64,000 bases of DNA from Beroe forskalii (Eukaryota > Ctenophora > Nuda > Beroida > Beroidae), in the NCBI GenBank assembly GCA_011033025.1, contig WFMF01000129.1, positions 186,001-250,000 on the forward strand. Direction: 5' to 3'. Positions 4,098-39,060 of this stretch are shown piece by piece; the stretch's first letter is position 1, and each line of letters opens with the position of its first letter. The notes below the pieces were generated by a model. It worked only from the letters and a program-made list of their open reading frames with translations. It did not search any database and was not told the DNA's origin. A program made the position numbers and the translations under genes.

Positions 4098-7000
4098 ATC
4101 TGTGTGAAGGTATCAGATGCAATCAGGCTGAAGTCTGTGAAGTCATAGAAGGGATACCCTCCTGTGTCTGTCCCTCCTGCACTCTAGAAGAACTCGAGGA
4201 GGACTCTTCTCTCTATTGCGGTATAATTCAACTTTCAAGTGACTTTATATCAACATGCAATCTTGCAAAGTTACCTATCTGTGACATAACGACCTGAAGA
4301 AATTACCACACCACTTCCCACTACCACAGGGTCTGATTGTGGAGTCTACATTTCTAAATGTTCCATCAGAGAAGCAAGCTGTCAGCAAGGAAAGAATATT
4401 GAGATTTTCAGAGAGTCATTCTGCCCGGAATTTTGTGAGTGGTGAATCTCAAAAATGCTTCCCATTAATAGCAATTCACAAATATAACGATTGGTTGTAA
4501 ATTGTCCATCAAAATATTTGAAGACCTTAACAATCTTGAAAAAGTCAATTATTGGATGACTAAAGTAAATATAATTTATGTTTTTCATTCCATGAAAAAC
4601 TACAAACACTACTATTATCAGCACTACCCCAATACGAGTACGAGAAGGCCGCCACAGAAGTGGTGGCATTCGGCAATGAGATACAACTCGTGTGTTACGG
4701 ACTACCTGACGGGGATACGCCCGGACCAACCCCAACAATCATGTTAGTGGGTGATGCGTGAGTTAGGTATGCGTGAGTGAGTGAGGATTAGTCAGTGGGG
4801 GATGCGTGAGTGGGGGATGTGTGAGTGAAGGATGAGTGAGTGAGGGATTAGTCAGTGGGGGATGCGTGAGTGGAGGATGCGTGATTTAGAGATGCATGAG
4901 TTAGGAATCCTCACCTCTCTCACTCATTTAACCATTTCCGGTTCCCCCTCAGGTGGTTTAACGAACTAGATGAGATGGTGGGTGAAGGTGAGGTCCTGAC
5001 CTACAGAGTGCTCAGTAACACTGAGTTACGGTGTGTTGGCGTTCATTGTCCTGCTTCTAACGCACAGAGACTGGACACTGTAATCAACACTTTCGATATA
5101 GCTGTAGAGGACTTTCTAACGGTGAGTGAATGACGAATTAGTTGTCAAAATGTTACTAGGCAGTGACATTCACTTCCTATTTGAATGACGCTGTAGTTGT
5201 CAGAATGTTTTCAAATGTTGCCAAACAGTTTTGTTATTAAGTCGGATTAAGGTAGGAAGTTTATGAAAGTAAAATCACCTCATTTCAAAAGTACAATATT
5301 ACAAGCAACGCCAATTTCTCTTATATTAGCTGGTAGAAAACTTTGATTTCGGAACAGAAACGAATATATCGAGACAGCATAAAATCTAAGTGAAAAATTT
5401 GGCCGAGGACAGGACCTATGATCTCTAACTCAATATCAAATCATCATCGAATAATCCTATTTATAGCATGTTATTATATATCAAGTTTCCATTAAACATG
5501 AAGTTTCATTTGAACGACTTCAACATCGCTAATTGCGGTTGTAGTATAACACTCACTCATATTTGATGCAACAACTGATAAATCCGAGGACGTAGTCCAA
5601 AGATAATCCTCGGATAAGCCCGAGGGTTAATACCTTGAGGCATAAGGGAAATTTTATGTGCTATTAGCACTGCAGGGCCAAGTTCAAAAGCTTTTTAATA
5701 AAATACATAGACACGCACCAATCTTGTCCATTTTGACATTTTGGATACTTAACGAGGAGGCATCCCGAGATATTTATAGGCCCCCCCCCCTATACGGTTT
5801 AGACAAAAGACCCACATCCCAGTGTGACGCAAATCTAATCTCTAAACCAATATGGACCCAATCAGGCCAGTGCCTATGTATTATAGGCACTGATGGAAAC
5901 GCCATGGGGTTATATAATGGCCCTATGGTTTTATAAAGCTTTGAAAGAACTGTGCATTATGGCCCGGGGTCCCCACAAAGAAGAATACAATGTGAAGCAC
6001 AACAAAGCCACTGGTGGACAGTAATTTCACATATTATCCGGGCAGCCTCGCCACTCCTGATTAATGCAGCCTTTGAGGTGGAAACACACTGCTTACATGA
6101 AAAAGAGCAGGGTGATTAATCAAAAACTACAGATCATATCGGATATAATCCATGGTTTATCACAAAGGAAAATATATGCCACGAAACCACAGAGGCTGGG
6201 CGGAATAATTTGATTATAGTGTGTGGTATGAAGTGGCGACAGCTTCAACCACGCAGGGCAGCTGGTTTTTGTAGATTAAATAACGCAACTACGTAAACAG
6301 TTAGGTAATCATGGACAGAGGAAACATCCTGGTATACGGTGGTATGCTCCCAGGCCTGAGGCCAACAAGGTAGAACAGACAAATTTATGCCACTATGCCA
6401 GCAATGCACAGCAAATAATACCAAGATGATGACAACACTCTTCATCGATTATCGGGTTAAAACTTTATTAAAAGATGTCCGATGAGAGACTTAACTAGGC
6501 CAAATCTAAACATAGATTGATAAAACTTCGTGAGAATTCGGAAGATTAAACATATTGTAAAGATTCATATAGTTTCATATAAGATTGCATGAAATTAGTA
6601 AGAAAGTTGGGGCAAACAATACCTTGCAATAACACAAGAAAAGTATTCTAGCAGTCTGACGTTCATAAGTCACATTGTTCAACTGAGAAGTTCAACACAA
6701 GAGAAGTTTATTAAAGTTAGAACTGATACAAGATGTGATTATCGTCACTCATGCATGCTTACTGTAAGCACTTAACCAGTAAAGCATATATTTTTATCTA
6801 CATACTACAGTACTGAGTTGCTGTAATTTGATCAACCATGTCCCAACAATTATTGGAGAGGTAGGTGAACAAGCTCATGCGTTACGTAGTACCATTACCA
6901 AGGATATAGTCTCCAAATCCATAACAAAAGGGTACCTTAGTGGTAGAAATTATGATGTGTACTTATTATGACGAATGAAATTATGATCGGTACTAATTAT

Positions 7001-10000
7001 GATAAAAAATTTGGGATAAAAACAAACCTTTGGGGCGAACAACCAGTGGAATAAAATTTCATTATTTTTGAACCATTTTTCTCGGCCCTTTGAACCAAAA
7101 TTGTCCAGAATCCTCCGAAATTTGGTCAAAAATCATGAAATAAGCCTTGATGCTGCCTATTTTCTGACCAAATCATCTCTTTTAGCATGATTTACATCCA
7201 TAATTGTGCTAACTTTCAACATCATGGTGATTGGGAAGTTAATGTTATGTGAATAACATGCCTGCACATTCCATATTGTTTTTCGACCGATGTTGTCTGT
7301 GTCTTCATTTTCGATCAAATGTAAATTTGGTCTTTGATAAGGTCTCGTAGAAAGGTAGCTTATTTGGAGGTTAGGACCTTTACTGTAGGTATCTGTTGAT
7401 CAACTTAGTTGATTGAAACTCCGTAATTTATGGCAACTCGATGATAGCACCGAAACCTTTGATTTTGTAAATTTGCTGATTGAAGTTCAAGTATAACAAA
7501 GATGTGAAAAGGGCCTTGGAGCCAACCATAATTTTTGGGCAACATGGTCATCCTGGTTGTTTCAACATGTTTTCTAAAAGTTTAAATAATGGTAGAATTT
7601 TGAGAAAGTACAAATTAAGATCTGTAGAAATTATGATGTGTAGAATTTATGATGCGTACTAATTATGATCATTTTGCGAAAATAATCATAATTAGTACGC
7701 ATCATAATTTCTACCACTATGAAAGTTAAATATAATATTTGGACGAGAGAGATACGGCTGTGATAGAGATGCAGTAGCTCAGATCTGGCAAGCAGGTGCT
7801 CTTTTTCATCCTAATTTTATGTTCGACACAGGCAGGTTAGAAATCAATAGCAATACAAAATCTAAAGTTGAGGATGTTGCGACCATGTCGGTTTAGAATG
7901 TGTATTGGGCAATGCCCAATACCCGTAGCTATCTCCTGAAACAGACAGGGAAACTGATCATCGATTAGTAGGATTTTACTCTCCGGGCTCCATCGCGCGC
8001 GCTTTTGAGGCGAGGACACGACCCTCCAATTTTATTATTATTACTATTTATTGTCATCATTATTATTAATTTATATTATTATTTTATCATTATTATCAAT
8101 ATTAATGCCGAATGTTGCGCGCTTGAGGGAGAAATCCATCTAATCATCGATCTACTGGCATAGTTATAGGAATATTACCATCTATTATACTGTGGGAAAT
8201 GGGAATCCTCCCTTTGGGGGGAAGAGGGACGGTGCTTTCGACGGAAAGGCATCGCCAGAGTGGAGCCCTTGGCTCTTGTGACTATAATAACATGATCTAA
8301 CAACAATAATCATGGAATTATTCAATAATAGAAGTCGACATCTGCTTTGCATATTATGATTAATATATTATCATTAAATTAGTATTACCCCTATTGTCAG
8401 GTATCCTCGAGTGAGTACACCTCCTCTGTCACCACGCCGACCCCCTCCACCTCCACTCCCTCCCTCCCCACCTCCAGTCCCACTCCCTCTCTCCCCACCT
8501 CGACCTCCAGCCCACCCCCCACACCCGCCCTCCCCAGGGAGAGTGTGGGCTCAGCCCTCTGCGAGGTGGTCGCCGGACCCTACGTCAGGACTTACGACGG
8601 ACTTTGGTGAGTTACGTGAAGTAAAAAGGAGCGTGATAGATAAATGTGTAACACGCGTTTTACTTTGCAAAGTTATTTTAAAAGAAAGAGAATGAACGGG
8701 AGGCTAGATCAATATTTTGGAAGGCATGAGATCGCAACAACCGAACATCTCTGACTCGGTATAATCTGCCCTAGACACAAGTGTTGTTTGATCTCCACAA
8801 GACTCTGGTTCGGAGTATTATATCTACAATATTAAAGTTTTTAACATCAAAGTCAGGCAGCAATGAAATGATGTAGATGGGTGGAAGTCTACAGCTTAAC
8901 CTAATAAGATGGTATTGGTAATGGTAGGTTTCTGTCGGTATTATTTGCCTTGACATCATAGGAGCATGGGGAATGACAAAAGTCAAAGCAATTTCACTTT
9001 GACTTGTAATGAAAATGTCAACCGCAAATCTCACGGCTTCAGGGCAGCCTTTCTATTGCAATCATAAAATACGGTATCTATAGTATGAGCTTAAAAGACA
9101 TGGTCACATCACTAGCGCCATCAATAGTTGTTTTATTTCAAAATGAGCATTATTAACCAAAAAATGACATTACCGAATACAAAAAACTGCATTATTACCC
9201 TTCTTATAACAGATAAAATGCCAAATCGAGAAAACTACATTATTCCGAAGTCACAGTAACAGCAATCACTATGACACCATCACTTTCAGTTCCATATTAT
9301 TGTCGTCATATCAGTATCACCGGTTCTAGGTGATATGACGACTCACGACAATAATATGGAACTGACAGTGATGGCGTCATATTGATTGCCGTTGCTGTGA
9401 CTTCGGAATAATGCAGCTGACATTATTTGGCATTGAACTGTTATAAGAACTAGCAGAACCCATGGCCTCCGGCCATCGTTCACAATTTTTTCGCTTCAGC
9501 AATTGGTACAGTATAATGCAGTACTGTAGTTCTTATCAGTGATGAGGTCATATTTTAATCGGGTGTGCCTACTCCTCTATGTGATGTCTATATGTCAGGT
9601 GGTGTCAAACGTCACTGGTACTCTGGTATGAACATTCCGATCATCGGCAATCGGCATGCTTGATTGGGTACTGAGTGGTGTCAGAAAAATCTGTGGCTAT
9701 ATATAAGCCACCGGACAGACAGAAATCATAAACCGGACAGACAGATATATATTTATTTATTTATTTATATATTCCCGCCCTGGCCAGGGCGGTAACCCCC
9801 CGCGGTATAGAAAAGACTGGCCAGGGGTATAAGTTAGAGATTTGAGTGTCACAGGGTGATATATATAATATATAATATATAATATCATGATAATTGGGAG
9901 CAAACTTGGAAAGCCGAGATGTCAAGAACGGGAAATGGTAGAGCCATGATCGAGGTCAGGTTTTGTTGATCTAAGATAGGAAAATGTTATAGGCTATAAG

Positions 10001-16000: not shown

Positions 16001-19000
16001 TGATGTTTACACTGGATTTTCTACTTGATTATGTTGGAATGAGTTTAAATACGACAAATGCACGTGAAATGAGATCTGGTTGCCATTTTTCAGCACGTGA
16101 GTACACACGGACGTTTCGTAGAAATTAGGGGATTTGAAGAAATTGATATTTACACGGGATTTTCGACTTGGTTACGTTGAAATAAGTTCAAATACGACTT
16201 ATGTACGTGAAATTAGATCTGGTTGCTATATTTGAGCACGTGAGTTCGCGTGGACGATTTGTAGAAATTAAGAAATATATCAATTCTAGTAATTCCAAGT
16301 TAGAATAACGTAGTTTTGGACTTTGTCAGGGTTAGTTACGTGGGTTCGGCTTGCGTGTGGGCTAGTTACGTGGGTTCAGACTACGTGAGGTATATACATA
16401 TAGAGAGATGACGCTTTAGTGCAAGATGTGTACCCTATTTAAACGGCGATATCTCGGGAACCATAAAAGATACAGAGCTCATCGACCTAGCGTTGGAAAG
16501 AAGAAAGATAGAACTTGCAGTTAGTGACCTTAAAAACTATTTTACGTCATGATAATGACGTCATAATGACGTCATAAAACTAAGAATTTCAAATGTCGAT
16601 TTTCCCAAAAATAGGCGTTTTTCAACGCAATTTTTCGGTATGAAGCTTTCGAGATAGGAAAAAATGCTCCTCCTAGCGTAAAAAGGAAATTTAATGTACT
16701 TTTCAAAAATGTGGTCGAAAAATTCTGGGCTCCCCGGCATCATTGAGATATATGCGATTGTTTGAAACACTTTGACACGAAAAAAATACCAAAAACTGGC
16801 AAAACTTGTGAAGCTAGTATAGAGAGAACGGGACCACCCCAGAACTCCATCTTTGGATATGTTGTCGGTCATAGTCCCAATTGTGTTAATGAATGGGTCT
16901 CAGATAGCTTATCTAATTTTATGACGTAATTGTGACGTCATCAGTAATGCTAGGTAATGCGAATTTTTACGCGTGATTTTACGCCAAATTTCAATATCTG
17001 GGCACAGAAAAAGGGTGATATTTTTTCCCAAAACCAAAAAGGATTTGGTTGTGATGGTCCGCGGCGGTTTTAAGGCGTTCTTTACTGTAAAACCCATGAT
17101 ATGAGAAAGAACGCGATGGTTAAAACTGCCGCAACGGCACTTTTTCGAAGCATTAAAGTTACGTGAATGCTGTACATTTTGAAGTGACGTTGCAGCAGTT
17201 TTAACCGTCGCGTTCTTTCTCATATCATGGGTTTTACAGTAAAGAACAACCAAATCCTTTTTGGTTTTGGGAAAAAATATATAGACAAGTAAATCATGAA
17301 TAAAGTATCCACTTCTCGATCCACTTCTTCCGGCGAGGTTCAGGGGACTCAGCAGTCAGCTGCTGCTTCACCATCTTCCACTCCGTGATGTCCTGTTCCA
17401 GCTTGAAACAGTCCAGGAAGTGCCAGATGGATGGGTTGAGGGTAGCCACCATACCAGGAGAGGGAACAAATGAGTTCTCCGACCAACTTCTTGGAGGGGT
17501 AGGGAGATGGTTGTGAGGGGAGCTGCCGGTGACGTTGGTTCCATGGGAGACGTTGAGCTTGCCTTTGCAGGACTTGTCCACACACCGCCAGTAGCACACG
17601 TCGCCTTTCTGCTTGTTGAGGGTGTAGCGGAAGGAGTGGTAGAGGAGGTTTTGGCGTCCACGAGTGCGCCCATCAACTAGCTTTGGAGGAGATGAAGTTG
17701 AACTGGAGGACATCTTGATGATGGTCCGATATTGACAAGGCTTATATACTAGTTTGTATGATCCCATCGCGTAATGACGATAGCTGATATCAATCAATGG
17801 TGCGATATGCGAGAAGTTCTTCCACGAGCAATGAAGTGAATCACAATATAATGTCCCTTTCAGCGCGATATGCGAGAAGACATTTCGCATGTTGTCATGT
17901 ACACACAGTCAGGACCACTTGCCATCGCCTGATCAGTACATTGATTGGAATCACAAGCTGCGATATACGAGAAGCTTCTTGCATGTTGTACTTGTAGTGT
18001 CCCACTTCTAGTGTCCCCATCACCTGATCTACCCGCGGATATCATAATATGTGAATCAATGGCTAACGCTAGCGCTTAAACAGAACCCTATAAGGCTGGT
18101 CCCCAAGTGTAAAGAGAGGAAAAGCAAGTCTATAGTTCGAACTTCCGTCGCCAAACATGACGGAAGTTCGAAACGACGGAAGTTCGAACTTCCGTCGTTT
18201 CGAACTTCCGTCGTTTCGAACTTCCGTCGTTCGAACTTCCGTCGGATTACCGATTACCCAAATTAAAAGGAGATGATCCTCCTCGAATGTTGAGGAGCAG
18301 GTCGTAAAAAAGGAACAGACTAGTTTAGAAAACTCGTAAAACCTTTGAAAACAAGTCGTGTGAAGGTCAATAATCCACCCCTCAGTCGGACAGCTCTGCA
18401 ACTGCAGCGGGGCTGGGTTATTAACAACAGCGGAGAGAAAGTCAAGGTGCGGGTTGGGGAGGTGGTTGAGTGGGGAGACACGATCACCTACACATTCGAC
18501 GGGGAACTCCTGATCTTCACCTTCGGAGAGGGCAACCAGATCCGGTGGAACGGATACAACGGTAGGTGGAGTGGGTACTAGGTCATTTGACCTGCCTGGA
18601 CATTTGGCCTGACGCCAAAACTCACAGTCACACAATTTTGAATCTATTTCTCACCCCTTACCCAAAGCAGGGTTGGGCCAAATGTCCAGTAAGGTCAAAT
18701 GAATAATGATCGAATGCCAGTGGAGTTAGGCACACGATGTTTGGAGAATACAATCAAGTACAGCACGATAAGATATTTGCCACAACACTGAAAAGAATTT
18801 ATACTATGGGATAAGTACGAAAAAGTTATCCCAAAATATGAAAGGATAGGTTTTTGATAGAAATAATCGTGAACATGACTTCGAAATGGCATGTGTTGAA
18901 GTTGTCTCGTCATCATGGCAACAGAATGATCTTAAAATACCAGTCACATGCATCGCTTGGTCGTTTACTTAAATCATTTGATAATAGGGTGTCATCAATC

Positions 19001-20558
19001 GGAAATTCGTAACACGCACAGCTATACTCAAAATCTCAAAAGTCGAAAGCATCCTTAAATCTGTTTCAACTCATTTGAGGCCATGCGAAAAGCTGTTCTG
19101 AAGTTTCAAATACCCAACAGTTATATCACGCCTCAAATAGGGACTGGGAGAGGATAGTGAATTAGTGAATCCGCATGACAGCATACGTTTAAAATACGCA
19201 ACTGAAGATTGAATACGCTATGGTGGCAACCAAAAATTAGAGTTAGATGATCTAACTCAACTTTTTGGTTGCCACCATAGGTGGTATCCCATCTTCAGTT
19301 GCGTAATTTTAAATGGATTATGTTACTTATGATCAACTGGCCTCAATCTGACCTCAAGTATTAATAGTTTGTAGTTACTTTAATACTTAACCATGAATCA
19401 AGCATGAATTTGCTGCTATCGCAGTGAAATTGTTGCTTTACAAGACTAGCAAAGTACTAACCGTCACTTAACAAGTTTTTTTGTACAGTTTCTTGACCAT
19501 GATAGCAAAGTGCTAACTGTTGCTTCATCAGGTTGCTAACTGTTGCTTTACAAGACTAGTAAAGTGCTAACTGTTGCTTTACCAGCTCTCCAGATCCTGA
19601 CAGAGCCGGGTAAGAGGAGGTGTGGGTTGTGTGGCAACAACAACGGTAACCCTGGAGACGACCTGCAGCCTAGGCGACGGAACCAAGTGGCGGCAACGCA
19701 CTACGAGTTCGTTAAGAGTTGGGGCTTCAACATGCAGCCGTAAGTACAAAACGTTCTGGAAGTAGAAATATAGGTGGTTCAGGGTCACTGATGAAACGGC
19801 AAAAAGCCGACACACTACAGTTCTATGGCTTGTGGAATGACGGTTGAATGGAGGATTAGGTGAAATGTTATTAAAAACGTTAACTTTGGCAACGTCTAAG
19901 CATCAATACTTAGATAACATTTGATCTCTTGATATATCGCTTTGTTATCACCAAGCAACTTCTCACTGCTCACTATTCACTAAGACCCATTGTCCAGGCA
20001 ATGCTACCAGCACCAGGTGCTCCTTTCGGAAACTGGGGAGGCGGAGGAGATTTGTAAGACTCTGTTCTACCACGAGGCAGTGTCCAAGTGCCATTACACG
20101 GTGAGAATGTTATTGTATGTGTTTACAATATGCCGTAGTGCTAGTTTTTAATGCATATGGTTTTTAGAGTCATTTATAAATCAACCTTAGGATGTATGCC
20201 TTGTACCTAGTATGGGAACGCATGCCCTGAACCTAGTATGCGTAGCCGTTATTAACCGCCCTGGCCAGCATTGGACGGCGATCCTAACAGTAGATGAGCC
20301 TCCAATAACCCCATTCATCCCCAGATTCCTGTGGGGGACTACATCAGGGCCTGTGTGCGGTTCCTCGTCTCAAACCCCCTCCCGGACACCGCCCTACGGC
20401 CCGAGTGCAACGTGTTGCAGAGCTACGTGGTGGCGTGTCAGACGCGCGGCGTGACGCACCTGCGGCGGTGGCGCCAGGAGACGGCGTGCACGGAGCTGGC
20501 GGCGCTGCAGCGACTGGTTATTTCGCAGGGGTGCCCTCAGGATAACCCACCTGTCTGA
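4098..20558 (+). CDS. secreted FOLN-Kazal-Ig-PTS-VWD-C8 multidomain protein, 3' part (10 exons)
   Basis: Proposed exons are 4098-4220, 4330-4434, 4622-4742, 4953-5121, 8401-8606, 11559-11690, 18386-18561, 19586-19739, 19998-20100 and 20325-20558 (TGA). All ten have AG acceptors, GT donors and mutually consistent phases, giving about 507 residues. In order: a FOLN EGF-like module (DLCEGIRC...SCVCPSC); a Kazal domain split by intron 1 (YCGSDCGVYISKC); an Ig-like domain split by an intron (QLVCYG...PTIMWFNE...LRCVGV); a Pro/Thr/Ser-rich mucin-like linker; a VWD domain (CEVVAGPYVRTYDGLWYV...CGLCGNNNG); and a C8 domain with paired cysteines ending shortly before the stop. Such modules act outside the cell in matrix, mucus or growth-factor binding. 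The 5' end lies outside the window or behind the minisatellite. No TIL or further VWD module follows. I know no standard gene with this exact order, so I give no symbol. Confidence 0.88.
4743..4915 (+). repeat. donor-adjacent intronic minisatellite
   Basis: The intron after the Ig half-exon begins at GTTAGT (4743) and immediately becomes a degenerate tandem repeat of a roughly 26-28 bp unit. Its core is GGATTAGTCAGTGGGGGATGCGTGAGTG, given here only as a consensus. Each unit carries one or more GTGAGT strings that look like donors. The first 25 bases of the intron resemble the unit, so the array appears to have grown from the donor side of the intron. The array stops about 40 bp before the acceptor at 4951-4952. 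Confidence 0.75.
5122..8400 (+). other. intron of the VWD-type gene
   Basis: This 3.3-kb intron separates the Ig exon from the mucin-linker/VWD exon. It is AT-rich, with an ATT-rich tract at about 8030-8105 and the Tc1/mariner-like element at 6940-7717. I found no convincing coding exon in it on either strand. The ORFs in 5658-6445 and 7837-8019 have no recognisable domain. Confidence 0.7.
6940..7717. mobile_element. Tc1/mariner-like non-autonomous element (778 bp)
   Basis: The left end reads GTGGTAGAAATTATGATG and the right end is its inverted complement, ending at 7717. The dinucleotide TA flanks both ends (6938-6939 and 7718-7719), as expected for a TA target-site duplication. Further subterminal repeats of the AATTATGATG type occur inside both ends, for example 6985-7005 and 7620-7690. 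No transposase-like ORF is present, so it would need an enzyme supplied in trans. It sits in an intron of the VWD-type gene. Confidence 0.75.
9200..9450. repeat. fold-back (long inverted repeat) element
   Basis: Sequence from about 9244 (ATTATTCCGAAGTCACAG) is repeated as the inverted complement ending near 9412 (CTGTGACTTCGGAATAAT). The imperfect arms are about 80 bp and meet near 9325. Weaker pairing extends outward to about 9200 and 9450. The shape is that of a palindromic MITE. No coding capacity is visible. Confidence 0.85.
9880..10985 (+). repeat. ~1-kb dispersed repeat, copy A
   Basis: This block is highly similar, in the same orientation, to 14795-15785. Shared landmarks include CAAGAACGGGAAATGGTAG, paired TGACGTCA strings, and a tail with CACGTGAGT followed by ACGTTTTGTAGAAATTAGGGG. 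The tail is a 130-145 bp unit, present here about twice and amplified after copy B. No protein-coding ORF is apparent. It is most likely a mobile-element-derived repeat inside an intron. Confidence 0.85.
10990..11230 (+). repeat. 15-bp minisatellite
   Basis: This tandem array has the unit GGGGGTCCGAATAAC, about 15 bp, with variants such as GATCCGAAT and CCGCATAAC. The period is a multiple of three, so long ORFs run through it on the minus strand. These consist only of repeating S-D-P-R-Y or related residues and are not genes. Confidence 0.9.
12405..13005 (+). repeat. two diverged ~300-bp direct repeats
   Basis: Two adjacent copies start at about 12405 and 12700, each with GACTAGCAGGCCCGTTGGGC. 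Both continue through ACTTTTTACCGCATCAAAAA, a CpG-rich GCGCGCGC stretch and a run ending in GCGAAATTATA. A partial third copy of the start (CTAGCAGGCCCAACGGGC) lies at about 12370. The opening contains a perfect GCCCGTTGGGC-type hairpin. No coding function is seen. Confidence 0.75.
13068..13343. repeat. fold-back MITE-like element
   Basis: The left end (GTTGACAGTCACAGACCCTT, from about 13069) and the right end (CTCACGAGGGTCTGTCAAC, to about 13342) are imperfect inverted repeats. A second inverted pair carries GCTTGCGTCA and its complement further in. No ORF is expected, and the candidate ORF at 13311-13508 crosses its boundary. Confidence 0.6.
14050..14190 (+). repeat. cluster of CGACGGAAGTTCGAA motifs
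   Basis: A 15-bp motif with core CGGAAGT plus TTCGAA is repeated about five times in both orientations. The block, including the neighbouring GATTACCCA and ACATGAC(A/G)GAAG strings, reappears inverted at 18124-18262. It is repetitive and has no sign of being coding. CGGAAGT resembles an ETS-family recognition core, but binding is only a possibility. Confidence 0.7.
14340..14615 (+). repeat. GC-rich 78-bp tandem repeat, about 3.5 copies
   Basis: The unit is about 78 bp and contains two perfect short hairpins, GGGCCGAAGGCCC and GGACCCGAAGGGTCC. It is far more GC-rich than its surroundings. Period 78 is divisible by three, so ORFs on both strands run through it and are repeat artefacts. The element start (AGCATTGGACGGCG) recurs singly in a later intron at about 20268-20293, so the unit is also dispersed. 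Confidence 0.85.
14795..16300 (+). repeat. ~1-kb dispersed repeat, copy B, with ~140-bp satellite tail
   Basis: 14795-15660 matches 9880-10740 closely. It is followed by tandem units of about 140-145 bp starting with GCACGTGAG at about 15664, 15808, 15948, 16088 and 16233. Each unit has CACGTG, ACGTTTTGTAGAAATTAGGG and TTTACACGGGATTTTCGACTT. A more diverged relative of the body, with TGACGTCA motifs, follows at about 16430-16960. Related sequence also occurs at 57770-58980. No ORF is supported. Confidence 0.85.
17018..17280. repeat. fold-back element
   Basis: ATATTTTTTCCCAAAACC at 17018 pairs with GGTTTTGGGAAAAAATAT ending at 17280. A second, longer arm (about 17076-17131 with 17190-17246) contains TTCTTTACTGTAAAACCCAT and its complement. 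A ~24-bp stretch in the left arm is unpaired. The element ends 14 bp from the FLYWCH stop codon and may form part of that gene's 3' UTR. Confidence 0.85.
17294..17713 (-). CDS. FLYWCH zinc-finger protein
   Basis: This ORF reads minus-strand from the preferred ATG at 17711-17713 (MSSSSTSSPPKL) to a stop at 17294, about 139 residues. Residues about 10-70 form a FLYWCH-type zinc finger: LVDGRTRGRQ, then LYHSFRYTLNKQ, WRCVDKSCKGKLNV, and the terminal HNHLP histidines. The C-terminal part (IWHFLDCFKLEQDITEWKM, then a basic tail) resembles the segment that often follows FLYWCH in MULE-related and domesticated proteins. FLYWCH fingers bind DNA or partner proteins in the nucleus. The frame stays open upstream to 17890, but that part is repetitive (GCGATATGCGAGAAG motifs) and unlikely to be coding. 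The gene is antisense inside an intron of the VWD-type gene and may have come from a transposon. Confidence 0.72.
   Translation of the reverse strand: MSSSSTSSPPKLVDGRTRGRQNLLYHSFRYTLNKQKGDVCYWRCVDKSCKGKLNVSHGTNVTGSSPHNHLPTPPRSWSENSFVPSPGMVATLNPSIWHFLDCFKLEQDITEWKMVKQQLTAESPEPRRKKWIEKWILYS
18124..18262 (-). repeat. inverted copy of the ACTTCCGTCG motif cluster
   Basis: At least six copies of TTCGAACTTCCGTCGT are packed here, mostly head to tail. The block is the inverted counterpart of 14050-14190, including the adjoining TACCCA border. It lies about 120 bp upstream of the VWD exon at 18386. Confidence 0.75.
19190..19312. repeat. fold-back element
   Basis: AAATACGCAACTGAAGAT and ATGGTGGCAACCAAAAA on the left are mirrored by TTTTTGGTTGCCACCAT and ATCTTCAGTTGCGTAATTT on the right. 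The arms are about 55 bp around a short loop near 19245. It lies in the intron before the CGLCGN exon. Confidence 0.85.
19430..19585 (+). repeat. tandemly duplicated 3' splice-site modules
   Basis: A roughly 20-bp module (GCTAACTGTTGCTTTACCAG) combines a CTAAC-type branch point, a pyrimidine stretch and AG. It ends at 19531, 19554 and 19585; only the last matches the phase of the CGLCGN exon. A partial copy and a diverged one (ACTAACCGTCACTTAACAAG) precede them at about 19430-19476. All copies look like usable acceptors. Confidence 0.8.
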
Positions 20559-28038: not shown

Positions 28039-31000
28039 CTAAAGTTTGTCTCTCAAACGAATAAGACCATCAAGCTCCTTCTGGTGCCCGGAAGTCTCCA
28101 ACCAGTCATGGAACCTGCCTTGGAGCGTGGCTGCTAGTTGGGAGGTCTGAGCCTCTGACAGGTCGCATTTCTGTACCTTGTCGTACCAGGCAGTCACCCG
28201 GTCCCGGGACTTGAGGGTCTGTTTCTCGTAGTCCGGGGGCAGCTGGCTCACCAGGCCCGTGGTGGTGCCCTCAGTGCTGAACGGGATGGAAAAGAGGTGG
28301 AACTGTTCTGGGGGCAGTCTCTGGTACACTTTACCCGTGTCACCTGAACAGGGTGAATGTAAAAGGGGGCAGTCTCTGGTACACTTTACCCGTGTCACCT
28401 GAACAGGGTGAATGTAAAAGGGGGCAGTCTCTGGTAGACTTTACCCGTGTCACCTGAACAGGGTGAATGTAAAAGGGGGCAGTCTCTGGTACACTTTACC
28501 CGTGTCACCTGAACAGGGTGAATGTAAAAGGGGGCAGTCTCTGGTACACTTTACCCGTGTCACCTGAACAGGGTGATGTAAAAGGGGGCAGTCTCTGGTA
28601 CACTTTACCCGTGTCACCTGAACAGGGTGAATGTAAAAGGGGGCAGTCTCTGGTACACTTTACCCGTGTCACCTGAAGGGGGTGAATGTGTGTAAAAGGG
28701 CAGTCTCTGGTACACTTTACCCGTGTCACCTGAACAGGGTGAATGTAAAAGGGGCAGTCTCTGGTACACTTTACCCGTGTCACCTGAACAGGGTGAATGT
28801 AAAAGGGGCAGTCTCTGGTACACTTTACCCGTGTCACCTGAACAGGGTGAATGTAAAGGGGCAGTCTCTGGTACACTTTACCCGTGTCACCTGAACAGGG
28901 TGAATGTAAAGGGGCAGTCTCTGGTACACTTTACCCGTGTCACCTGAACAGGGTGAATGTAAGTCTCGGGGGCAGTCTGAACAGGGTGAATGTGGCACAC
29001 TTTACCCGTGTCACCTGAACAGGGTGAATGTAAAAGGGGGCAGTCTCTGGTACACTTTACCCGTGTCACCTGAACAGGGTGAATGTAAAAGGGGGCAGTC
29101 TCTGGTACACTTTACCCGTGTCACCTGAACAGGGTGATGTAAAAGGGGGCAGTCTCTGGTACACTTTACCCGTGTCACCTGAACAGGGTGAATGTAAAAG
29201 GGGGCAGTCTCTGGTACACTTCACCCGTGTCACCTGAACAGGGTGAATGTAAAAGGGGGCAGTCTCTGGTACACTTTACCCGTGTCACCTGAACAGGGTG
29301 AATGTAAAAGGGGGCAGTCTCTGGTACACTTTACCCGTGTCACCTGAACAGGGTGATGTAAAAGGGGGCAGTCTCTGGTACACTTTACCCGTGTCACCTG
29401 AACAGGGTGAATGTAAAAGGGGGCAGTCTCTGGTACACTTCACCCGTGTCACCTGAACAGGGTGAATGTAAAAGGGGCAGTCTCTGGTACACTTTACCCG
29501 TGTCACCTGAACAGGGTGACTGTAAAGGGGCAGTCTCTGGTACACTTTACCCGTGTCACCTGAACAGGGTGAATGTAAAAGGGGCAGTCTCTGGTAGACT
29601 TTACCCGTGTCACCTGAACAGGTTGAATGTAAAAGGGGCAGTCTCTGGTACACTTTACCCGTGTCGCCTGAACAGGGTGAATGTAAAGGGGGCAGTCTCT
29701 GGTACACTTTACCCGTGTCACCTGAACAGGGTGAATGTAAAAGGGGCAGTCTCTGGTACACTTTACCCGTGTCACCTGAACAGGGTGACTGTAAAAGGGG
29801 CAGTCTCTGGTACACTTTACCCGTGTCACCTGAACAGGGTGAATGTAAAAGGGGGCAGTCTCTGGTACACTTCACCCGTGTCACCTGAACAGGGTGAATG
29901 TAAAAGGGGGCAGTCTCTGGTACACTTCACCCGTGTCACCTGAACAGGGTGAATGTAAAAGGGGCAGTCTCTGGTACACTTTACCCGTGTCACCTGAACA
30001 GGGTGAATGTAAAAGGGGCAGTCTCTGGTACACTTCACCCGTGTCACCTGAACAGGGTGAATGTAAAAGGGGCAGTCTCTGGTACACTTTACCCGTGTCA
30101 CCTGAACAGGGTGAATGTAAAGGGGCAGTCTCTGGTACACTTTACCCGTGTCACCTGAACAGGGTGACTGTAAAAGGGGGCAGTCTCTGGTACACTTTAC
30201 CCGTGTCACCTGAACAGGGTGAATGTAAAAGGGGGCAGTCTCTGGTAGACTTTACCCGTGTCACCTGAACAGGTTGAATGTAAAAGGGGGCAGTCTCTGG
30301 TACACTTTACCCGTGTCGCCTGAACAGGGTGAATGTAAAAGGGGGCAGTCTCTGGTAGACTTTATCCGTGTCACCTGAACAGGGTGAAGTAATGTTCCAT
30401 GTTCCCCGGCCTTTTTTTAATGTTTACTTTACCGTACCCCTCAACCCTCATGTAGTAATTTAGCCCTAGTCTTGCTTGCAAAGTTACAATGTAAAGTGTA
30501 TACTTTACTGTACCCCCACCCCTAACTCCCTAATTAGGCTTAACCTCTGGTCCTCTTCCCTGTTCCCCACCCCTACTTACCATCCAGACACATGGGCGAG
30601 GAAGGCTTATCCCAGAGGTTCTTAGCCACAGAGAAGTTGGAGTGTGAGAGATGGCCGGCTAGTCCGCGGTAGAAGGTGTTGTAGGGGGCGAGGGTAATAT
30701 CGTTACAACCCGCTAAAAGGAGGGGCTGCGTGGGGGTCACTAGGTACAGCTTGCAGCTGTGACAATTCCTGCGAATGAGTTAAATAAGCGAGTGTGACTG
30801 TACTAACAAGAAATAGTTGTTGCCGTAAATCCAAATCTTCACAAATCATGACTAGACACAGAGTAACTGTTGTCATAGCTACAACAAATGAATCATGGCT
30901 AGACACGGAGTAACTGTTGTCATAGCTACAACTAATGAATCATGACCCTCACTGGACTGACCTGAGGACGATCCTGCGCGCGATGGAGATGATCCTCATG

Positions 31001-31691
31001 TTAACGCATCCGGTGAGGTACAGCGTCCCTGCGATGGGTCCTGTCGCCACGGTGGAGCGCGCGCACTGCTTGACGGACGTGTCGCGCATGGAGGAGAGCA
31101 AGTAGATGGACGCGTCGTTGCAGTGGGTCACGTGCACACGGTGGTTGAGCAGGGTCTCCGAGCCCAGGACGGTTATCTGCCGGGAGACGTACTGCATCGC
31201 CACCAGGCGGTGCTCAGCCGGGGTCTCGTGGTCGTTGGTGGTGATGCGGCACCGGGTCATGGTGCTGGGGGAGCTGCCGCCGTTCCTGGGGAGGGATAAG
31301 CTGTAGATGTGTAGATAGATAGGTATATTATAGGGTATATTATATAGGGTATATTATAGGGTGGGGATATCATGATAACAGCTGTAGATAGAGCTCAGAA
31401 GTTCAAAAAACGATCACAATTCTCATTTTCCAATTTGATAAAAGCAGAAGTTAAGTAAAAGACCGTGGATCTTATAAGAGGTGAAGGAGGTGGAAATTTG
31501 ATAAACCACGATTTTGTTACAATTCACTGGACTAACTCTAAGCTGTGATCTGAAGGTCTTCTGTTTCTCCTGTTTGGTTTCTGGTACACCGTCTTACCAT
31601 GCATTAAACATCGCTTGCTAGTGAAAGGGTTAGCATGCATGTGGTCCAGCAACCAGGTCCGCACTTGCTGCGTGTTGAACGACTGTGTTAA
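28039..31691 (-). CDS. TBCC domain-containing protein 1 (TBCCD1)-like, 3' part (4 exons)
   Basis: Minus-strand exons are 31528-31691, 30962-31285, 30581-30768 and 28039-28343 (TAG). The last three junctions have matched phases (2, 2, 1) and GT-AG borders, giving about 326 residues. Exon 2 carries the cofactor-C-like beta-helix: RVHVTHCNDASIYLLSSMRD, then VKQCARSTVATGPIAGTLYL. Exon 3 continues with KLYLVTPTQPLLLAGCNDI and APYNTFYRGL. The last exon has DGDTGKVYQRLPPEQFHLFS and a helical C-terminus. This order fits TBCCD1, a relative of tubulin cofactor C needed in other eukaryotes for centrosome/Golgi or basal-body positioning. The N-terminal exons are not found here and probably lie further upstream. 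The 2.2-kb final intron is almost wholly a minisatellite derived from the exon-4 acceptor. Confidence 0.82.
28310..30390 (-). repeat. 54/55-bp minisatellite derived from a splice acceptor, about 38 copies
   Basis: On the minus strand each unit reads CACCCTGTTCAG|GTGACACGGGTAAAG, followed by a segment ending AGACTGCCCCC and a TTTTACATT linker. The copy nearest exon 4 contributes that exon's first 34 bases and its acceptor at 28344-28345, so the unit equals 34 bp of exon plus 21 bp of intron end. Units of 54 bp keep frame and give minus-strand ORFs up to 199 residues of an 18-residue repeat (GDTGKVYQRLP...). Units of 55 bp shift frame, and the ones next to the exon are mostly 55 bp. Confidence 0.95.
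30843..30937 (-). repeat. 47-bp tandem duplication in a TBCCD1-like intron
   Basis: Two copies of about 47 bp (each AATCATG(A/G)CTAGACAC through GCTACAAC(A/T)AATG) are followed by a 9-bp partial third copy. They fill much of the short intron between exons 30962-31285 and 30581-30768. No splice site is included in the full copies. Confidence 0.8.
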
Positions 31692-32229
31692 CTGAAATAA
31701 TAAATTCATAAATTCCCAATCGATCTGACATAAATGAAATGCCGATATACTGAGTTAAATTCTCATCAAACTGAGGCAGAAACCTTTCGTTTTACACATC
31801 ATCACTCATCAGTCAGTGCATATAATGAGAATAAGCTAGGTTAGGAAAACAGCAAAGCAAATGTGAACTGAAATGGTGTCAAATTGTAATCTTGTCTTTA
31901 CTATTCACTCCAATTTTCATTGATTGTCGTGCTAGGTCATTAGAATAGGAAGATTTGAAAAATAAACTGTTCTTTTTTAGTTCATCGTTGAACTGTCTTT
32001 TTTGCCCCCTATCGTTCTACTTGGAATTTTTGAACTGAAACCCTCATTCTCTCCTCTTTAACAAAAAATGTGCCCTTGTTTATCTCGGGAAAAACCCCAC
32101 AGTCATCTTTTATTTCCCCCTCTCCCCTCCCCAAAGGTAGTTTTTTCAAATAAAAAACTCTTTCGTTTTTTTCCCAAAATTCCCCGGGAATTTAATTCCT
32201 GTTTATTATTTTCTCAAAAATCGCATTCC

Positions 32230-32960: not shown

Positions 32961-35035
32961 ATGTGTAAAGGCAAGACGTTGGAGCGAACTGCGCGCAAAG
33001 CTTACATTTAATACTTGTTATACGTATACGTTGCTCTTTATTTAAAGTCGTTTCTCAAGTCCATGTCATACCTACTTACCTACATCAAACCATGAATTCA
33101 ATGGATATTGGATGGAATGGAATTTCCATGTTACGATTTACTGGTTAGGTAAAAGCTTGTTCTTAACTTAACCTGTGATCAATAAGGATTGTATTTAATA
33201 ATATTGCATTCCATGAAATGCAAAGATCGATTGATCGTCAGCAGTCTGTACGTATAGCCTTTAATTCAATGGCTTCATATAAGGAGCAATAAATCAATTC
33301 CATTTAATGGTTTGCACATAAGCACCAATTGTAATTTATAATGACACTTTTATCAAAACTTTATGTTTAGGTTTTATTATCCACGTTTAGTCCATGGATT
33401 TTTTGTTCATGAATATTGGTACATTCAATTTCATTCTGTGGGCCATTTCCTTAAATCCCTCTTCCAACGGGGTCTTAGGAAACTAATACGGGGTCTTAGG
33501 AAATTGATAGTAAAACATATAACCGCACCAGGTGGCACACACTATTAATAGTGTATAACTATACTCGAGAAATTGTTTTTCTCAGCGTTTATTAATTTAA
33601 AGTAGCTATGGAATACCTTTCACTTTCGATAACCCATGCATCACTCGTACAATGTGTTTTAAGCTGCTGCCATTTAATGATATCATTCAAATATATTGAA
33701 TTGAATTACTTTATTATATATAGTTTTAGCTTTTTATGTTGAACAAATTTACCTCGTTTATCCCAAATGTTGTAAAAGCTTGTGATGTAATTATTAAACA
33801 AGATGCATGTTTTATCAGAACTTAATAAATTCGTACTGATTGCTGAGTTCCTTACATCATTCAGAAGGTTAGGGTAATGGTTGGGATTAGGTTTATTAGG
33901 GTTAGGATACAAAAAGATTAAGGTTTTGGTCTGTGAAGTGACTCCGCCAGAATTATATGTGACACCCAAAAATCGCTTTTGTCCTTATTAAGGCTAGGCT
34001 TTAAGGGCCGGTTTTAAATAAAGGCCAATAAGGTATGGTAAGTCAAACTACTGCATCAAGTTCAACATACTGTACGTATGCCATGAAGATATAATTACGG
34101 CAGCTGACTGTAATCTACAATTTCATCCCTAGGCTGCCCCCAAATAGTCGGCAATGTGAAGTGCAGCCACGATGAAGTTTCCAAATAGTCAATTATTGAA
34201 TTCAACCGCCTACTATTGCCTGCGAGCCCCTTAACTGCATACAGGTGTTGCGATTGCAGGGTACTGGTGGTCATTAGCAGGCCTTCATTGGAAAGGAACC
34301 CTGTATTGTTACTAAAACTATTACTATGTATTGAGTATTCCGTCCTGTGTTTAGTGTGTTTTTAGTAGTGTTACAAACGTTACCACATTACTGTTACTCA
34401 AACAATACGTATTGTACATTTTGTTGTTCGAACAATATATTGATCTTATGCTACACACAACGCTTGGTTTGAAATAGACAACAAAAGATCTACACTAGAT
34501 AACAAATAGCAATTGTCGTTTTAAACGACATGATATCAGTTGACACCTCACCCAGATGGTCAAATTTCCCTTGCACAGTCGAACTCTTGGCCTCGAAAAT
34601 TTTATTCAGCGACCTTTGTTTTGAGCCGATAATCCTAAAATTTAAATCCTTCTTTGATCTTTCAGTTTAAAACTGTATTAGGTTAACTATTTCATCATCA
34701 TGTGACTATAATTTTCAATTTTTCATTTTTTAATCCTTATTCCAACGAGTAAGATAGAGATTGATTGAAAACCCGCGGTGGGGTACCACTAAGGGCTTTG
34801 AAAATATATACATAAATCTGAAATCATTCTCCAAAAAGTAATATTTGAAAATCCTACTCAACGAAAACTAAATAGTATGAAAAAATATGCGAAAACATTC
34901 ATTAGTTTTGTGTGATATTTGTATCAAACTCATGTAACACTGTGCTGCAAAACCTAGAACAATAGAGGAACAATATATTAAATTCACACATCATGCATTC
35001 GCGATCGACCAATAATAGGCATCGTGTTGAAATGA
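32961..35035. other. AT-rich region with no recognised gene
   Basis: I see no convincing exon. A GGTTAGGG-like stretch occurs at about 33865-33910, and the dispersed motif ATAAAGGCCAATAAGGTA lies at about 34017. Downstream of the LINE ORF1 on its own strand I found no reverse-transcriptase or endonuclease ORF. Confidence 0.6.
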
Positions 35036-35914
35036 TCACGATCCGTTAGAGTTGACCACAGTCACTACAGAACCGAATTTGATGTAATGTTTTCTGCTAG
35101 GATCACCGTCACGTTTCTTCTTCAACTCCTCAATGAGGAGTTTGTGTGCCGAGCGTTCGTCCATAGTCCTATCCGGTCTAATAAAGACTGAACGGAACTT
35201 CTGTGAGTTCCGCAGCTTCTTGGCCTGCACTAAGATGTGTCTAGATGTGCTCGTGCACGACAACATAACCTTCACTGGTCTTGAGCGCTTCTGGTCCCCG
35301 GTCTTGCCCACACGACAAACCTCAGCAGCAGGTTTGATTCCCAGCTCTCCGAACACTTCCAGCACCTTACCAGACAAGTCCTCATCCTTTTCTTCAGGCA
35401 CACCGAACAACATCAGGTTCCTACTCCTATCTCCTTCCTGAACAACATCCTTCACTACACTTTTCAGCGTCTGCTGACTGATCTGAGATGATTCACCCGT
35501 GCTTTTTACAGCCTCGCTGTATGTCTTGATCTGCTCTTCAACAGTCTTCGTTACTGATTCCGTCACCGCACTCTGTACTGAGTTCAACATCTTGTCCTTG
35601 CAAATAATCATCTCATGCTGTTGAACAATAACAAGCTTCTGCGACTTCACGAGGTCTGATTTAGTAGTCTGAAGATCTGACCTGGCATGTCTGAGACTGT
35701 TGTTCTGAATTCGCACATACTGAAACGCTTCGCAACACATTGTGACAAGCTTTTCCTTCCTCAACTCTCGGCACTTTGACGGCGTAACATGGGTCGGATC
35801 GTCGCAGGTCAACTCCGCCATTGCCCTCCCGAGCCAAAGACTTGCCCTTCCCACCAAATCGTCAATTTCTCTGTCATTAGATTTAGAGGGCTTTGTAGAA
35901 GTATTTGCAGCCAT
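35036..35914 (-). CDS. LINE ORF1-like protein (retrotransposon remnant)
   Basis: The frame is open from 36001, but the ATG at 35912-35914 (MAANTSTKPSK) gives a more natural start and about 292 residues. Counting from the upstream start, residues about 95-190 are predicted helical coiled coil. Residues about 192-235 (RNLMLFGVPEEKDED, then FGELGIKPAAEVCRVG) and 242-280 (PVKVMLS...FIRPDRTMDER) match the RRM and C-terminal domain pattern of L1/CR1-type ORF1 proteins. Such proteins bind RNA and chaperone retrotransposition. No ORF2 follows, so the element is 5'-biased or broken, or the ORF stands alone. It lies upstream of, or within, the plus-strand gene at 36033-37286. Confidence 0.7.
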   Translation of the reverse strand: MAANTSTKPSKSNDREIDDLVGRASLWLGRAMAELTCDDPTHVTPSKCRELRKEKLVTMCCEAFQYVRIQNNSLRHARSDLQTTKSDLVKSQKLVIVQQHEMIICKDKMLNSVQSAVTESVTKTVEEQIKTYSEAVKSTGESSQISQQTLKSVVKDVVQEGDRSRNLMLFGVPEEKDEDLSGKVLEVFGELGIKPAAEVCRVGKTGDQKRSRPVKVMLSCTSTSRHILVQAKKLRNSQKFRSVFIRPDRTMDERSAHKLLIEELKKKRDGDPSRKHYIKFGSVVTVVNSNGS

Positions 35915-36032
35915 GGTATTCAGGAATACACACAGCCACAATAACGGTGTTGTGCGATTATCAAGCAACTGATAACAGAGAGATAAAATCAACACGCACA
36001 CAAATAATGGTATACTGCACTGATGAACTGAG

Positions 36033-37286
36033 AAGAAGGTGACTCGAGCAAAGCTGTCGAGTGAAGAGGATCAAGGGACTGGAGAGGAGAGGGTTCCCCA
36101 GCAGGACGCCTGGCAGGAGACTGGTGTGGGGGAGTCCTTTGGAGCCTGGCAGGAGACTGGTGTGGGCGAGTCCTCCGGAAATGAGATCGAGAGATTAAGT
36201 GATGATCCTACAGGGCTTGGTAAGTGCAGTGGACATGAGACATGCCATTGCCTGTCATTCGCAGTCACGACGAATCTCGTGCATGAAAATTCACATGACA
36301 AACAGATCCTTTCATTATTCGCTATTTTAAATGAAGTTGACCTTTTTCTTCTTTTCATTTACAGCGTATGATTCAAAAACATTTCACGATTTTAATTTCA
36401 CATACCCCGCAGATTTCCAGCAACAAATCGACAAGCCCGGTGCTCTTGCACCAGAGACGATTACAGGAGCTGCAAGTGCATCACAGATACCTGAATCACG
36501 TACAGTTGCAGTAGCAAAAGCACAAGAAGAAGAAGAAGAATTACAGGAGGAAGAATACGAGGATTCTCTCTGCGAATGCTTCCTGGTTGAAGTCTTCTGG
36601 TCGGTGTGGTTTGCGGAGTTCTGCGCGCGCACATTCGACATCCACCTGACGTGCGTCTCGAAGAAGGGCACCCCCGCACAGGGCAGGAAGAGGCCAGCCA
36701 GAGAGGGACACATCGTGAGGTGGCTGAGGAGGATGGGGGAACTTTCTCGCAAGAAGAGGAAGAAACTGGGGAAGGAGTGTAGAAGACTCAGTGTCTGGAC
36801 CTATCAGGTACCGAGAGGGTAGTCGTAGTGTTGGTCATGGTGTGGAAGTGAAACGGTAGTTGTGGTGGTGTGTAAAATGATGAAGAGTGGAAGTTGAGCA
36901 ATTCACCTGCCGCACTCCTTTGGGGGGGGGGAGAAGGATGAGTTTATGTAAATTGTAAATTAAAATTGAAGAATGAGGATAGAGGACACCAATAAAACAA
37001 ATACGATATGATATTCAAATACACCATCACATGTACTTTTCTATTCGCAACTACATGTATGCACTGCACTTTGAATATTGGGGTAGTCTACGTCCATCCA
37101 TTCCTCTAATCTAAGCCTCTGTAATTCGGCAGGATCCCCTAATCTAAGCCTCTAATTCGGCAGGATCCCCGTATCAAGGAGATGGAGATGGAGCTCGAGA
37201 GTCTCAGACAACAAGTAGCTCTACAGAGTGTCCCAAACACCAGTCAGAGGAGTGGAACACGTCCTTCTGACGAACTTCAGAGCTAA
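36033..37286 (+). CDS. unknown protein with acidic, basic and coiled-coil segments (3 exons seen)
   Basis: Exons are about 36033-36219, 36365-36807 and 37164-37286 (TAA), with phases 1 and 0 matching. The first carries a tandem duplication of AWQETGVGESFG. The second encodes FHDFNFTYPADFQQQ, a Glu-rich run (EEEEELQEEEYED), a Cys/Trp segment (CECFLVEVFWSVWF) and a Lys/Arg-rich stretch (RKKRKKLGKECRR). The last encodes a short helix (IKEMEMELESLRQQVA) and an STOP-proximal polar tail. I do not recognise the family. The start of exon 1 is uncertain (acceptors at 36032, 36035 or 36038) and earlier exons may exist. The acceptor of the last exon is tandemly duplicated. It is convergent with the minus-strand gene at 37807-39060. 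Confidence 0.6.
37106..37169 (+). repeat. 33-bp tandem duplication over a splice acceptor
   Basis: Two copies, 37106-37138 and 37139-37169, share CTAATCTAAGCCTCT, then AATTCGGCAGGATCCCC. The second provides the acceptor (CAG at 37161-37163) and first bases of the last exon of the 36033-37286 gene. The first copy contains the same acceptor plus the same exon start. A 2-bp indel (GT) separates them. Confidence 0.88.
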
Positions 37287-37339
37287 TGTAGCAAGGACTT
37301 CAGTGCTGTAAGTCTATTGTCTATATTGTACGACGTACG

Positions 37340-37513
37340 TTGATACTACAGACAGGAAGTGGTCGAATCAAGCCGAGACAAGCGGAAAAAAGCGAAACAG
37401 ACCGAAACTACCCCAACCCTAACCATTACCCGGGTTGATTCGCTTGTTTTGGGTTGATTCGCTTGTTCCGGGTTGTTTCGCTTGTATCGGCTAGTTCCTG
37501 CTTGTAGTATCGA
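37340..37513. repeat. small inverted-repeat element between convergent genes
   Basis: GATACTACAGACAGGAA on the left is mirrored by TTCCTGCTTGTAGTATC on the right. Inside, GGTTGATTCGCTTGTT-like units repeat three times, and their complement (AACAAGCGAA-type) is on the left. It lies just downstream of the 37286 stop and could be a MITE or contribute to transcript 3' ends. Confidence 0.6.
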
Positions 37514-37806
37514 CGCTATATTGTAATGAGTCTACTATAATAAAAGCTAATAATCCAATAGAAATAGTCTGCATAATTCTTATTGCTACCTAACTACTGA
37601 CTCAATTTAGTATTAGTTGACACAAATCATGCGAGTTTCTGAGTTTATCTGAGTATCTGAGAGCACGAGTAAATCTGACTTAGTACGTTGCACACTCCTC
37701 CGTTACACAATACACATATAATGCGCGGCCCTGCGTTGCCTTATCACGGCTTTCATTGGATAAGAGAAATCTCCCAATCAGAAGTCTCTCTGTCTTTAGA
37801 AGTCTC

Positions 37807-39060
37807 TCAATTCGGCGGGGTCACAACTCGTGTGGCAATGAAGCCGTTGTAGGACACTGGCATGCTTGCTGTGTGCTTCTTGAATGCTTTCTCCTGGAGG
37901 TTATTGTGTTCTGTTAACTTGAAAACATTTTGATACAGTAATAATCGAGGGTGAATAGTCATTGAATACTGAGTAATAAATTTGGAAGAAACGCGACTTG
38001 AGTTGCTTCCCTTCGAAATATATTCTGTTACATCAGATTGTGGGCACATTTGACATTTTCTTACCGGTTTACATATTGCAGGCTGCCTAGTGCCTCCAAT
38101 TTTGATACCTAAAACTCTAAAAGTACCACTTACTGAAGAGTTTTTCCTGACGGCAGTCAGTGATATCTGTCTCTCGGCTGACTTGAGTGCTGCCCGTGTT
38201 TCCCGGAGAGTTCGGGCCTCCATGGCCGCTAGTTCGGAGGGCGAGGGGAGGGGCGTCGTGGAGTCGTCGTCATTGGACGAGATCTCCGGGATGAACTTCT
38301 TCTTCTGAAACACTGGCAGTATAACGCTGTGCTATACGCTGTCAAAGTGTGAAATCAACCAAGTTTCAACGGTTAATGTCCCCCTCCCCCAATATTTTGG
38401 AAGTTTGGAGAAGATGAAAAGATGTGGCTCCACGATTTTGAAAATGCAAAGCATACATCAGCTCCTTTTTTCAAGTATTCATGCTCCATTTCCACGCATT
38501 TGAAGAGCATTGGAGCCATCATGGTGGCTCTCTGTCACCTGGGATTTGTCCTGGTAGAAAGGGTTGAGGGGTTTTAACCGCTCCTCCACCGACCAGTTGG
38601 GACCCGGGAGAGAGGAGACACTCGACTTGGATATCCTGGTGTCGCCGTCCAGTGAGTCTATGGCGAGATCAGCAGCACTCTGGAGATAGTAAGGGTTAGG
38701 AGACAGCTGCACTCTGAAGATTGTTAGGGTTAGGAGACAAGTGTCTGTAGAGCTTTGTACTGAGAACTGTGTCGTTATTCGTGTCAACAAAAGGTACGAA
38801 GTAGGTACAACAATCCTTATAGAGACCGGGTTGTATGAAAACAGTAAAGAGTATCGGATAACTTGATATTTTACTTCCGAAAAGGCCAGTGTATCTTTCT
38901 CATGGAGGGGTTGACCTATTATTTTGTTGACGTAAAGTTTTTTGAAGAAAAAAAAAACATTAAAAAAACAACAAAGAAACACCTGTATCTTCTCGTAGAC
39001 GACCTCTGGATCCCCAGCTTTGAACCTCTTGATGAGAGTATCCACATATGCACCCGACAT
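37807..39060 (-). CDS. small unknown protein, possibly complete (4 exons)
   Basis: Minus-strand exons are 38983-39060 (ATG at 39058-39060), 38539-38679, 38134-38304 and 37807-37893 (TGA). All four junctions are phase 0 with GT-AG borders, giving about 158 residues. It starts MSGAYVDTLIKRFKAGDPEV, continues with SAADLAIDSLDGDTRISK and a tryptophan motif (PGPNWSVEERLKPLNPFYQ), then KKKFIPEISSNDDD, an Ala/Arg-rich helix (LAAMEARTLRETRAALKSAE) and ends FIATRVVTPPN. There is no signal peptide or membrane segment, so it is likely cytoplasmic. I do not recognise it. Exon 2 can also read through to a stop at 38479, a possible shorter isoform. Its acceptor is tandemly duplicated. Confidence 0.65.
38675..38739 (-). 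repeat. 34-bp tandem duplication over a splice acceptor
   Basis: Two copies (38675-38705 and 38709-38739) share GCACTCTG(G/A)AGAT and GTTAGGAGACA. On the minus strand both read CTAACCCT..TCT(C/T)CAG|AGTGC, so each carries a pyrimidine tract, an AG and the first exon bases. The copy next to exon 2 is the one used in the model. Confidence 0.85.

Follow-up and report, generated by a model that had tools for sequence, protein, structure and literature searches.

Minisatellite-like repeats lying across exon-intron borders have been described in amphioxus under the name of mirages, in Adh3 and the globin genes BflGb6 and BflGb9 (PMC3087553), to which TnC and PGBD5 were added by PMC3902484. In mirages, the repeat unit extends across the 5' or 3' exon-intron boundary, AG or GT is present in many copies, mRNA is regularly spliced despite the repeats, and their length is unstable between alleles or cells (PMC3087553, PMC3902484). 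The arrays of the ctenophore Beroe forskalii reported here resemble mirages in these sequence features, being minisatellite-like, with units across a boundary and AG or GT in many copies. They come from another phylum, and the two largest comprise 38 and ~90 copies, compared with the 6 and 3 given for BflGb6. RT-PCR evidence, as presented there, concerns the amphioxus mirages only, whereas the ctenophore arrays are known from DNA. Ordinary intronic minisatellites are similar in unit size and in their homogenised copies but, unlike them, the ctenophore units hold exon sequence together with a complete-looking splice site. The sequence-only reading knew of no described genome-wide case; to call the phenomenon undescribed would be too strong, as mirages are described from several amphioxus genes (PMC3087553, PMC3902484). 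The kind is already known from amphioxus; the phylum is new, and neither a ctenophore report of junction minisatellites nor a genome-wide count was found among the literature matches listed.

The stretch of 64,000 nucleotides presented here (C169:186001-250000; hereafter the window) belongs to an assembly of 216 Mb in 1134 contigs, of which 304 kb were analysed: C169:136001-300000, including the window, C1:100001-150000, C2:100001-150000 and C3:200001-240000. Tandem repeats made up 8-22% of the sampled stretches at a score of at least 50. Gene models were produced for the 304 kb by a self-trained two-strand gene-finding HMM without RNA, which yielded 37 genes and 125 introns. Confident introns numbered 103 in the strict setting (median 262 bp) and 146 in the looser one, exons situated mostly within tandem repeats having been removed before counting. 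The duplicated units were mostly 31-55 bp long.

In the window, the TBCCD1 gene (minus strand) carries a 38-copy array spanning an acceptor (28310-30392) in intron 28344-30580. The upstream exon (30581-30768) ends in the donor GTAAGT, and the first 34 nt of the downstream exon (28103-28343) are repeated within the intron. As read here, the 55-bp unit consists of these 34 nt of exon and 21 nt of intron end (branchpoint-polypyrimidine-AG); the copy count shifts slightly with the anchor, between 38 and 39. All 38 copies found in the intron keep the AG. Over 37 units, conservation was 0.969 in the intron part and 0.971 in the exon part, with AG in 37/37 and most positions 97-100% conserved. Both parts are thus equally conserved, the copies evolving as a single block. 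Among the best candidates scored, with very common words skipped, the 16 genome matches obtained with the unit all fell into its own array. The array claimed by the sequence-only reading thus exists, and the gene model agrees with ctenophore proteins: the TBCCD1 protein of the window is 80% identical to that of the lobate ctenophore Bolinopsis microptera. Across the junction it reads LDGDTGKVYQ, whereas the Bolinopsis protein reads LDGGSLLGDSGKVYQ, thus having five more residues there, an addition that P0002 lacks. The Bolinopsis sequence is termed isoform X1, and its extra residues fall exactly at 28343/28344, as if from an alternative acceptor 15 nt upstream. The gene is also divided between two contigs: 28045-31694 of the window matches residues 226-551 of the Bolinopsis protein and C215:302568-304398 matches residues 1-184, which reflects either an assembly break or a rearrangement.

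The largest array of the window was absent from the sequence-only reading. It occupies positions 1-3837 (plus strand) and represents the final part of an array of ~90 copies of a donor-spanning 55-bp unit (C169:184795-189837), within one 5.3-kb intron of an Ig-type gene. As read here, the unit comprises the final ~28 nt of an Ig-domain exon and the donor. The authentic donor, AAATG|GTAAGC, is situated at C169:184767, 1.2 kb upstream of the window start, and is followed by 86 AAATG|GTAACT sites across 5 kb; the GT is intact in 80/80 copies found in the intron. An ungapped detector missed this array because of a 1-nt indel, and a gapped detector finds it.

Two acceptors of the window are duplicated only once. 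On the plus strand, two copies (37102-37170) lie over acceptor 37163|37164 of intron 36808-37163, spaced by 31 nt, or 33 by gapped alignment. A tandem paralogue of this locus ~70 kb away (C169:152839) shows a clean gap of 33 columns, i.e. one copy, and the junction is conserved there. The same intron of the paralogue has a donor-side array of 438 bp with a period of 31, compared with few copies at the window locus. On the minus strand, two 34-bp copies (38665-38739) lie over acceptor 38680|38679 of intron 38680-38982, in gene 37810-39060, whose relatives were found in Bolinopsis (51%) and Mnemiopsis (52%). In three homologous proteins, of which two come from named ctenophores, KIQ is followed by S(A/S)A(D/E)LA, which corresponds to the exon-proximal copy. 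A protein from another source (P0008) contains an insertion at the 38679/38680 junction that resembles a read-through intron. Both duplications had been placed by the earlier reading at almost the same positions (37106-37169 and 38675-38739), and the junctions were borne out by the paralogue and the homologous proteins, respectively.

These comparisons bear on the possibility of errors in the gene models or the assembly, with repeats that merely appear to overlap splice sites. The models came from a small HMM, which fused TBCCD1 with an adjoining kinase and placed false exons inside arrays (these errors were removed by hand or by filter), and the spread of TBCCD1 over two contigs, together with a pair of segments on C1 described below, could point to misassembly. 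Against this, the TBCCD1 and 38680 junctions agree with ctenophore proteins, the 37163 junction is kept in its paralogue, and Pfam domains (I-set/Ig, VWD, TBCC and kinase) were detected in four of the six window proteins scanned, with none in the other two. We regard such an error as the least probable of the explanations considered, with hardly any weight. The 9-nt micro-exons with which a first version of the gene finder filled the TBCCD1 array were recognised as an artefact and led to a lower limit on exon length. A tblastn comparison of the window kinase with plasmids returned nothing useful.

Further junction arrays were detected outside the window. Intron 129990-130678 of a zinc-finger gene on C1 has its acceptor repeated in 48-bp units, with 13 copies by anchor, and the paralogous intron 132963-133181 in an adjoining segment has two copies. 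AG was lost in 2/13 copies of the larger array and is intact in 10 of the 12 counted within the intron. No ctenophore relative of this gene was found by protein search (one weak insect match among 7982 candidates scored), so its junction rests on coding continuity and the paralogue. The two longest flanking matches between C1:129343-130970 and C1:132108-133470 are 95-96% identical; this pair could be a tandem duplication or two haplotypes joined in the assembly. Exon-including tandem copies were also present at an acceptor at C2:131275-131549 and at donors at C169:168604-168869 and C2:132672-133043. A 24-bp unit repeated ~104 times at 42844-45321 of the window leaves several reading frames open on each strand, reaching 442 aa on the minus strand, and is probably noncoding. 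Arrays with periods of 159-163 bp, at 48841-49699 and 52127-52831 of the window and near 103775, 106402, 145848 and 148811 on C2, possibly form a single dispersed satellite family.

At two places proposed by the sequence-only reading, the repeats proved to be real but to consist of intron-side sequence only. In the Ig-type gene (plus strand), the minisatellite at 4746-4905, with a 15/60-bp unit rich in GTGAGT, adjoins the donor of intron 4743-4952 and starts 3 nt into the intron; a second gene-finder setting preferred the donor at 4758, 15 nt downstream of 4743. Similarly, the 3' end of intron 18562-19585 (plus strand), before a VWD-domain exon, contains five degenerate CTAAC-polypyrimidine-AG modules (19421-19585), three to five having been claimed at 19430-19585. 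Compared with the last one, these 24-nt modules match at 15, 18, 22, 20 and 24 of 24 bases. At least 17 matches occurred in 0.0005 of shuffles, and the 15-match module is therefore weak. Most of the five have a CTAAC-type branchpoint. No exon sequence is copied in these modules, which end at AG, and the junction itself is not duplicated.

All five places named by the earlier reading thus exist, in several unrelated genes, and their models are backed by homology, a paralogue or coding continuity. Its view of the copy numbers as stages of one process also fits the data. Junction copy numbers range from two to ~90, and paralogues differ in them (one versus two and two versus 13 at acceptors and, at a donor, few copies in one paralogue against 438 bp of array in the other), from which we conclude that the series is real. 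The claim that existing introns are lengthened could be examined at 37163 only, and there the single-copy paralogue has the same intron. In this respect the process is unlike the intron gain by tandem genomic duplication reported for the potato RdRp gene (PMC4974935), where a segment with splice signals is likewise duplicated.

As for the use of the copied sites, 49/49 upstream acceptors with an intact AG in four arrays (37, 1, 1 and 10 acceptors) run into an in-frame stop, either within the added segment or where it ends; C1:132963, C2:131275, 19585 and the donor arrays were left out of this test. Use of an upstream copy would therefore be costly, and the exon-proximal site is presumably the one picked by the spliceosome; the homologous proteins agree with this site at 38680 and in TBCCD1. 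Authentic sites scored above the mean of their copies in seven of nine arrays, equal in one and below in one, which we did not use as evidence because the gene finder tends to choose the best-scoring copy. Where an acceptor array includes exon sequence, ~20-29 nt of its unit are intronic, as read here, which would leave room for an AG with its polypyrimidine tract and branchpoint. In the sample, branchpoint-like motifs peak 15-25 nt before AG, and 37/103 introns have one between -35 and -10.

The stops could also mean that the redundant sites have been retained because they serve as decoy acceptors, which would tune expression by diverting transcripts into premature stops. The 49/49 result would suit such a role, as would the Bolinopsis isoform X1 with its extra residues exactly at the array junction. 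However, segments of 31-55 nt would be expected to run into stops by chance as well, and since the TBCCD1 copies are near-identical, really only four arrays were tested. Moreover, C1 copies have lost AG, splice signals are not clearly better conserved than the rest of the unit, and paralogues make do with one or two copies. A decoy function is thus very unlikely in our judgement.

We consider it probable that these arrays are passive minisatellites of the mirage type, which came to span junctions by chance and without targeting. Short tandem duplications, about 20-60 bp in unit length, would form at many sites in the noncoding part of the genome, the copies presumably arising by slippage or unequal exchange. 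Since introns are short relative to the units, junctions would often be struck by chance. If a duplicated segment crosses the exon-intron border, each copy would bring a complete splice site and from a few to ~34 nt of exon. Should the spliceosome then pick the exon-proximal site (the last acceptor or the first donor), the protein would stay intact, so that the duplication is tolerated and the array is free to grow into the intron, probably under near-neutrality. A duplication cutting the branchpoint-polypyrimidine-AG module, on the other hand, would be expected to disable the exon-proximal acceptor and to be lost.

Alternatively, tandem duplication might start preferentially at junctions because of some property of the acceptor or donor (sequence, R-loops or transcription-coupled breakage). 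We therefore compared junctions with intron interiors. The gapped detector in its strict setting found exon-including tandem copies at 6/103 acceptors and 3/103 donors, spread over three contigs; these acceptors include a pair from paralogous introns of one tandem gene segment. The copy-weighted interior predicted 4.5 each (P 0.29 and 0.83). Because the window had been selected for holding junction cases, only counts outside it are fair, and these were 3 and 2 of 84 versus 3.7 expected each (P 0.72 and 0.89). With the looser setting, 10 acceptors and 10 donors of 146 were found versus 7.2 expected each (P 0.18), and outside the window 8 and 8 of 124 versus 6.1 (P 0.27). Without copy weighting, 24.8 of 103 would be expected. 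In a variant on the strict set, with three thresholds and junction-array introns excluded from the interior rate, the expectation fell to 1.7-2.9 each of 103. Acceptors then gave P 0.008-0.069 and both together P 0.009-0.124 with the preselected window included, which speaks for targeting; outside it, the ranges were 0.17-0.42 and 0.16-0.50. In none of the five same-detector settings was an acceptor or donor excess outside the window significant.

Other detectors led to similar results. Copies of the junction core at most 150 nt away (score at least 28, strict) were found at 10/74 acceptors and 7/74 donors versus 11.0 expected from interiors, donors being low (P 0.016), and the looser set gave 12 acceptors and 7 donors of 92 versus 11.8; three other thresholds again gave no acceptor excess. 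Ungapped copies crossed the junction at 4 acceptors and 3 donors of 103 and, in introns longer than 120 bp (n=87), at 4 and 3 versus 9.0 expected. Over seven detector settings, 3-7 acceptors were observed versus 7.7-11.7 expected, and raw repeat coverage in interiors equalled or exceeded that at junctions, contrary to what targeting would predict. An interior-coverage result for 81 introns in the first 284 kb, with 10 acceptors versus 12.6 expected, was superseded by the 304-kb run. This simple null, which gave no enrichment and depleted donors, is inflated by long arrays, and copy-weighted nulls were therefore added. With the ungapped detector, 3/18 acceptors were positive in the window versus 1/85 outside (Fisher P 0.016).

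A founder null based on Tandem Repeats Finder did show an excess. In the strict set, 5 acceptors and 2 donors of 103 were found versus 0.3-0.5 (interiors) or 1.3 (all noncoding DNA), and outside the window 2 acceptors and 2 donors of 85 versus 0.26-0.41 (P 0.028-0.065). The looser set gave 6-7 acceptors and 3 donors of 146 versus 0.69-0.92 expected and, outside the window, 3-4 acceptors of 125 (P 0.005-0.022) and 2 donors (P 0.12-0.19). We trust this null less, because interior arrays are detected differently (the whole array in the intron, median unit ~20-22 bp) from junction arrays. Among arrays of at least 400 bp in confident introns, 3/5 span a junction versus 1.16 expected (P 0.066), which likewise would favour targeting. 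A gene-model-free comparison of the units of 101 arrays with random noncoding DNA revealed no overall excess of acceptor motifs, which argues against it; their mean percentile was 0.49 (KS P 0.40), and the top decile held 14.9% (P 0.078). For donor motifs the top decile held 16.8% (P 0.023). Outside the window (n=86) the top decile held 15.1% for acceptors (P 0.086) and 16.3% for donors (P 0.046), a slight excess of donor motifs that speaks against a purely passive origin, and for noncoding arrays only (n=79) 12.7% each (P 0.26).

The enrichment at splice sites anticipated by the sequence-only reading thus did not emerge as a clear excess over the 304 kb. Special targeting of splice sites is not supported by the same-detector tests, in which numbers are small; a modest preference, up to a few-fold, is possible. 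As an explanation of the arrays we find preferred targeting unlikely. Equally doubtful is, in our opinion, the broader proposition that ctenophore tandem duplication starts preferentially at junctions, above the noncoding background, with about 1/20 introns holding a junction-derived array and intron length growing partly by the copying of own splice sites.

These arrays, probably passive and placed by chance, carry the mirage type beyond amphioxus into a ctenophore, where the arrays reach a larger size and paralogue pairs include early as well as late states. Should such arrays be common, they would amount to a natural experiment on which of dozens of near-identical sites the spliceosome selects, and introns would have a concrete way to become longer without transposons.
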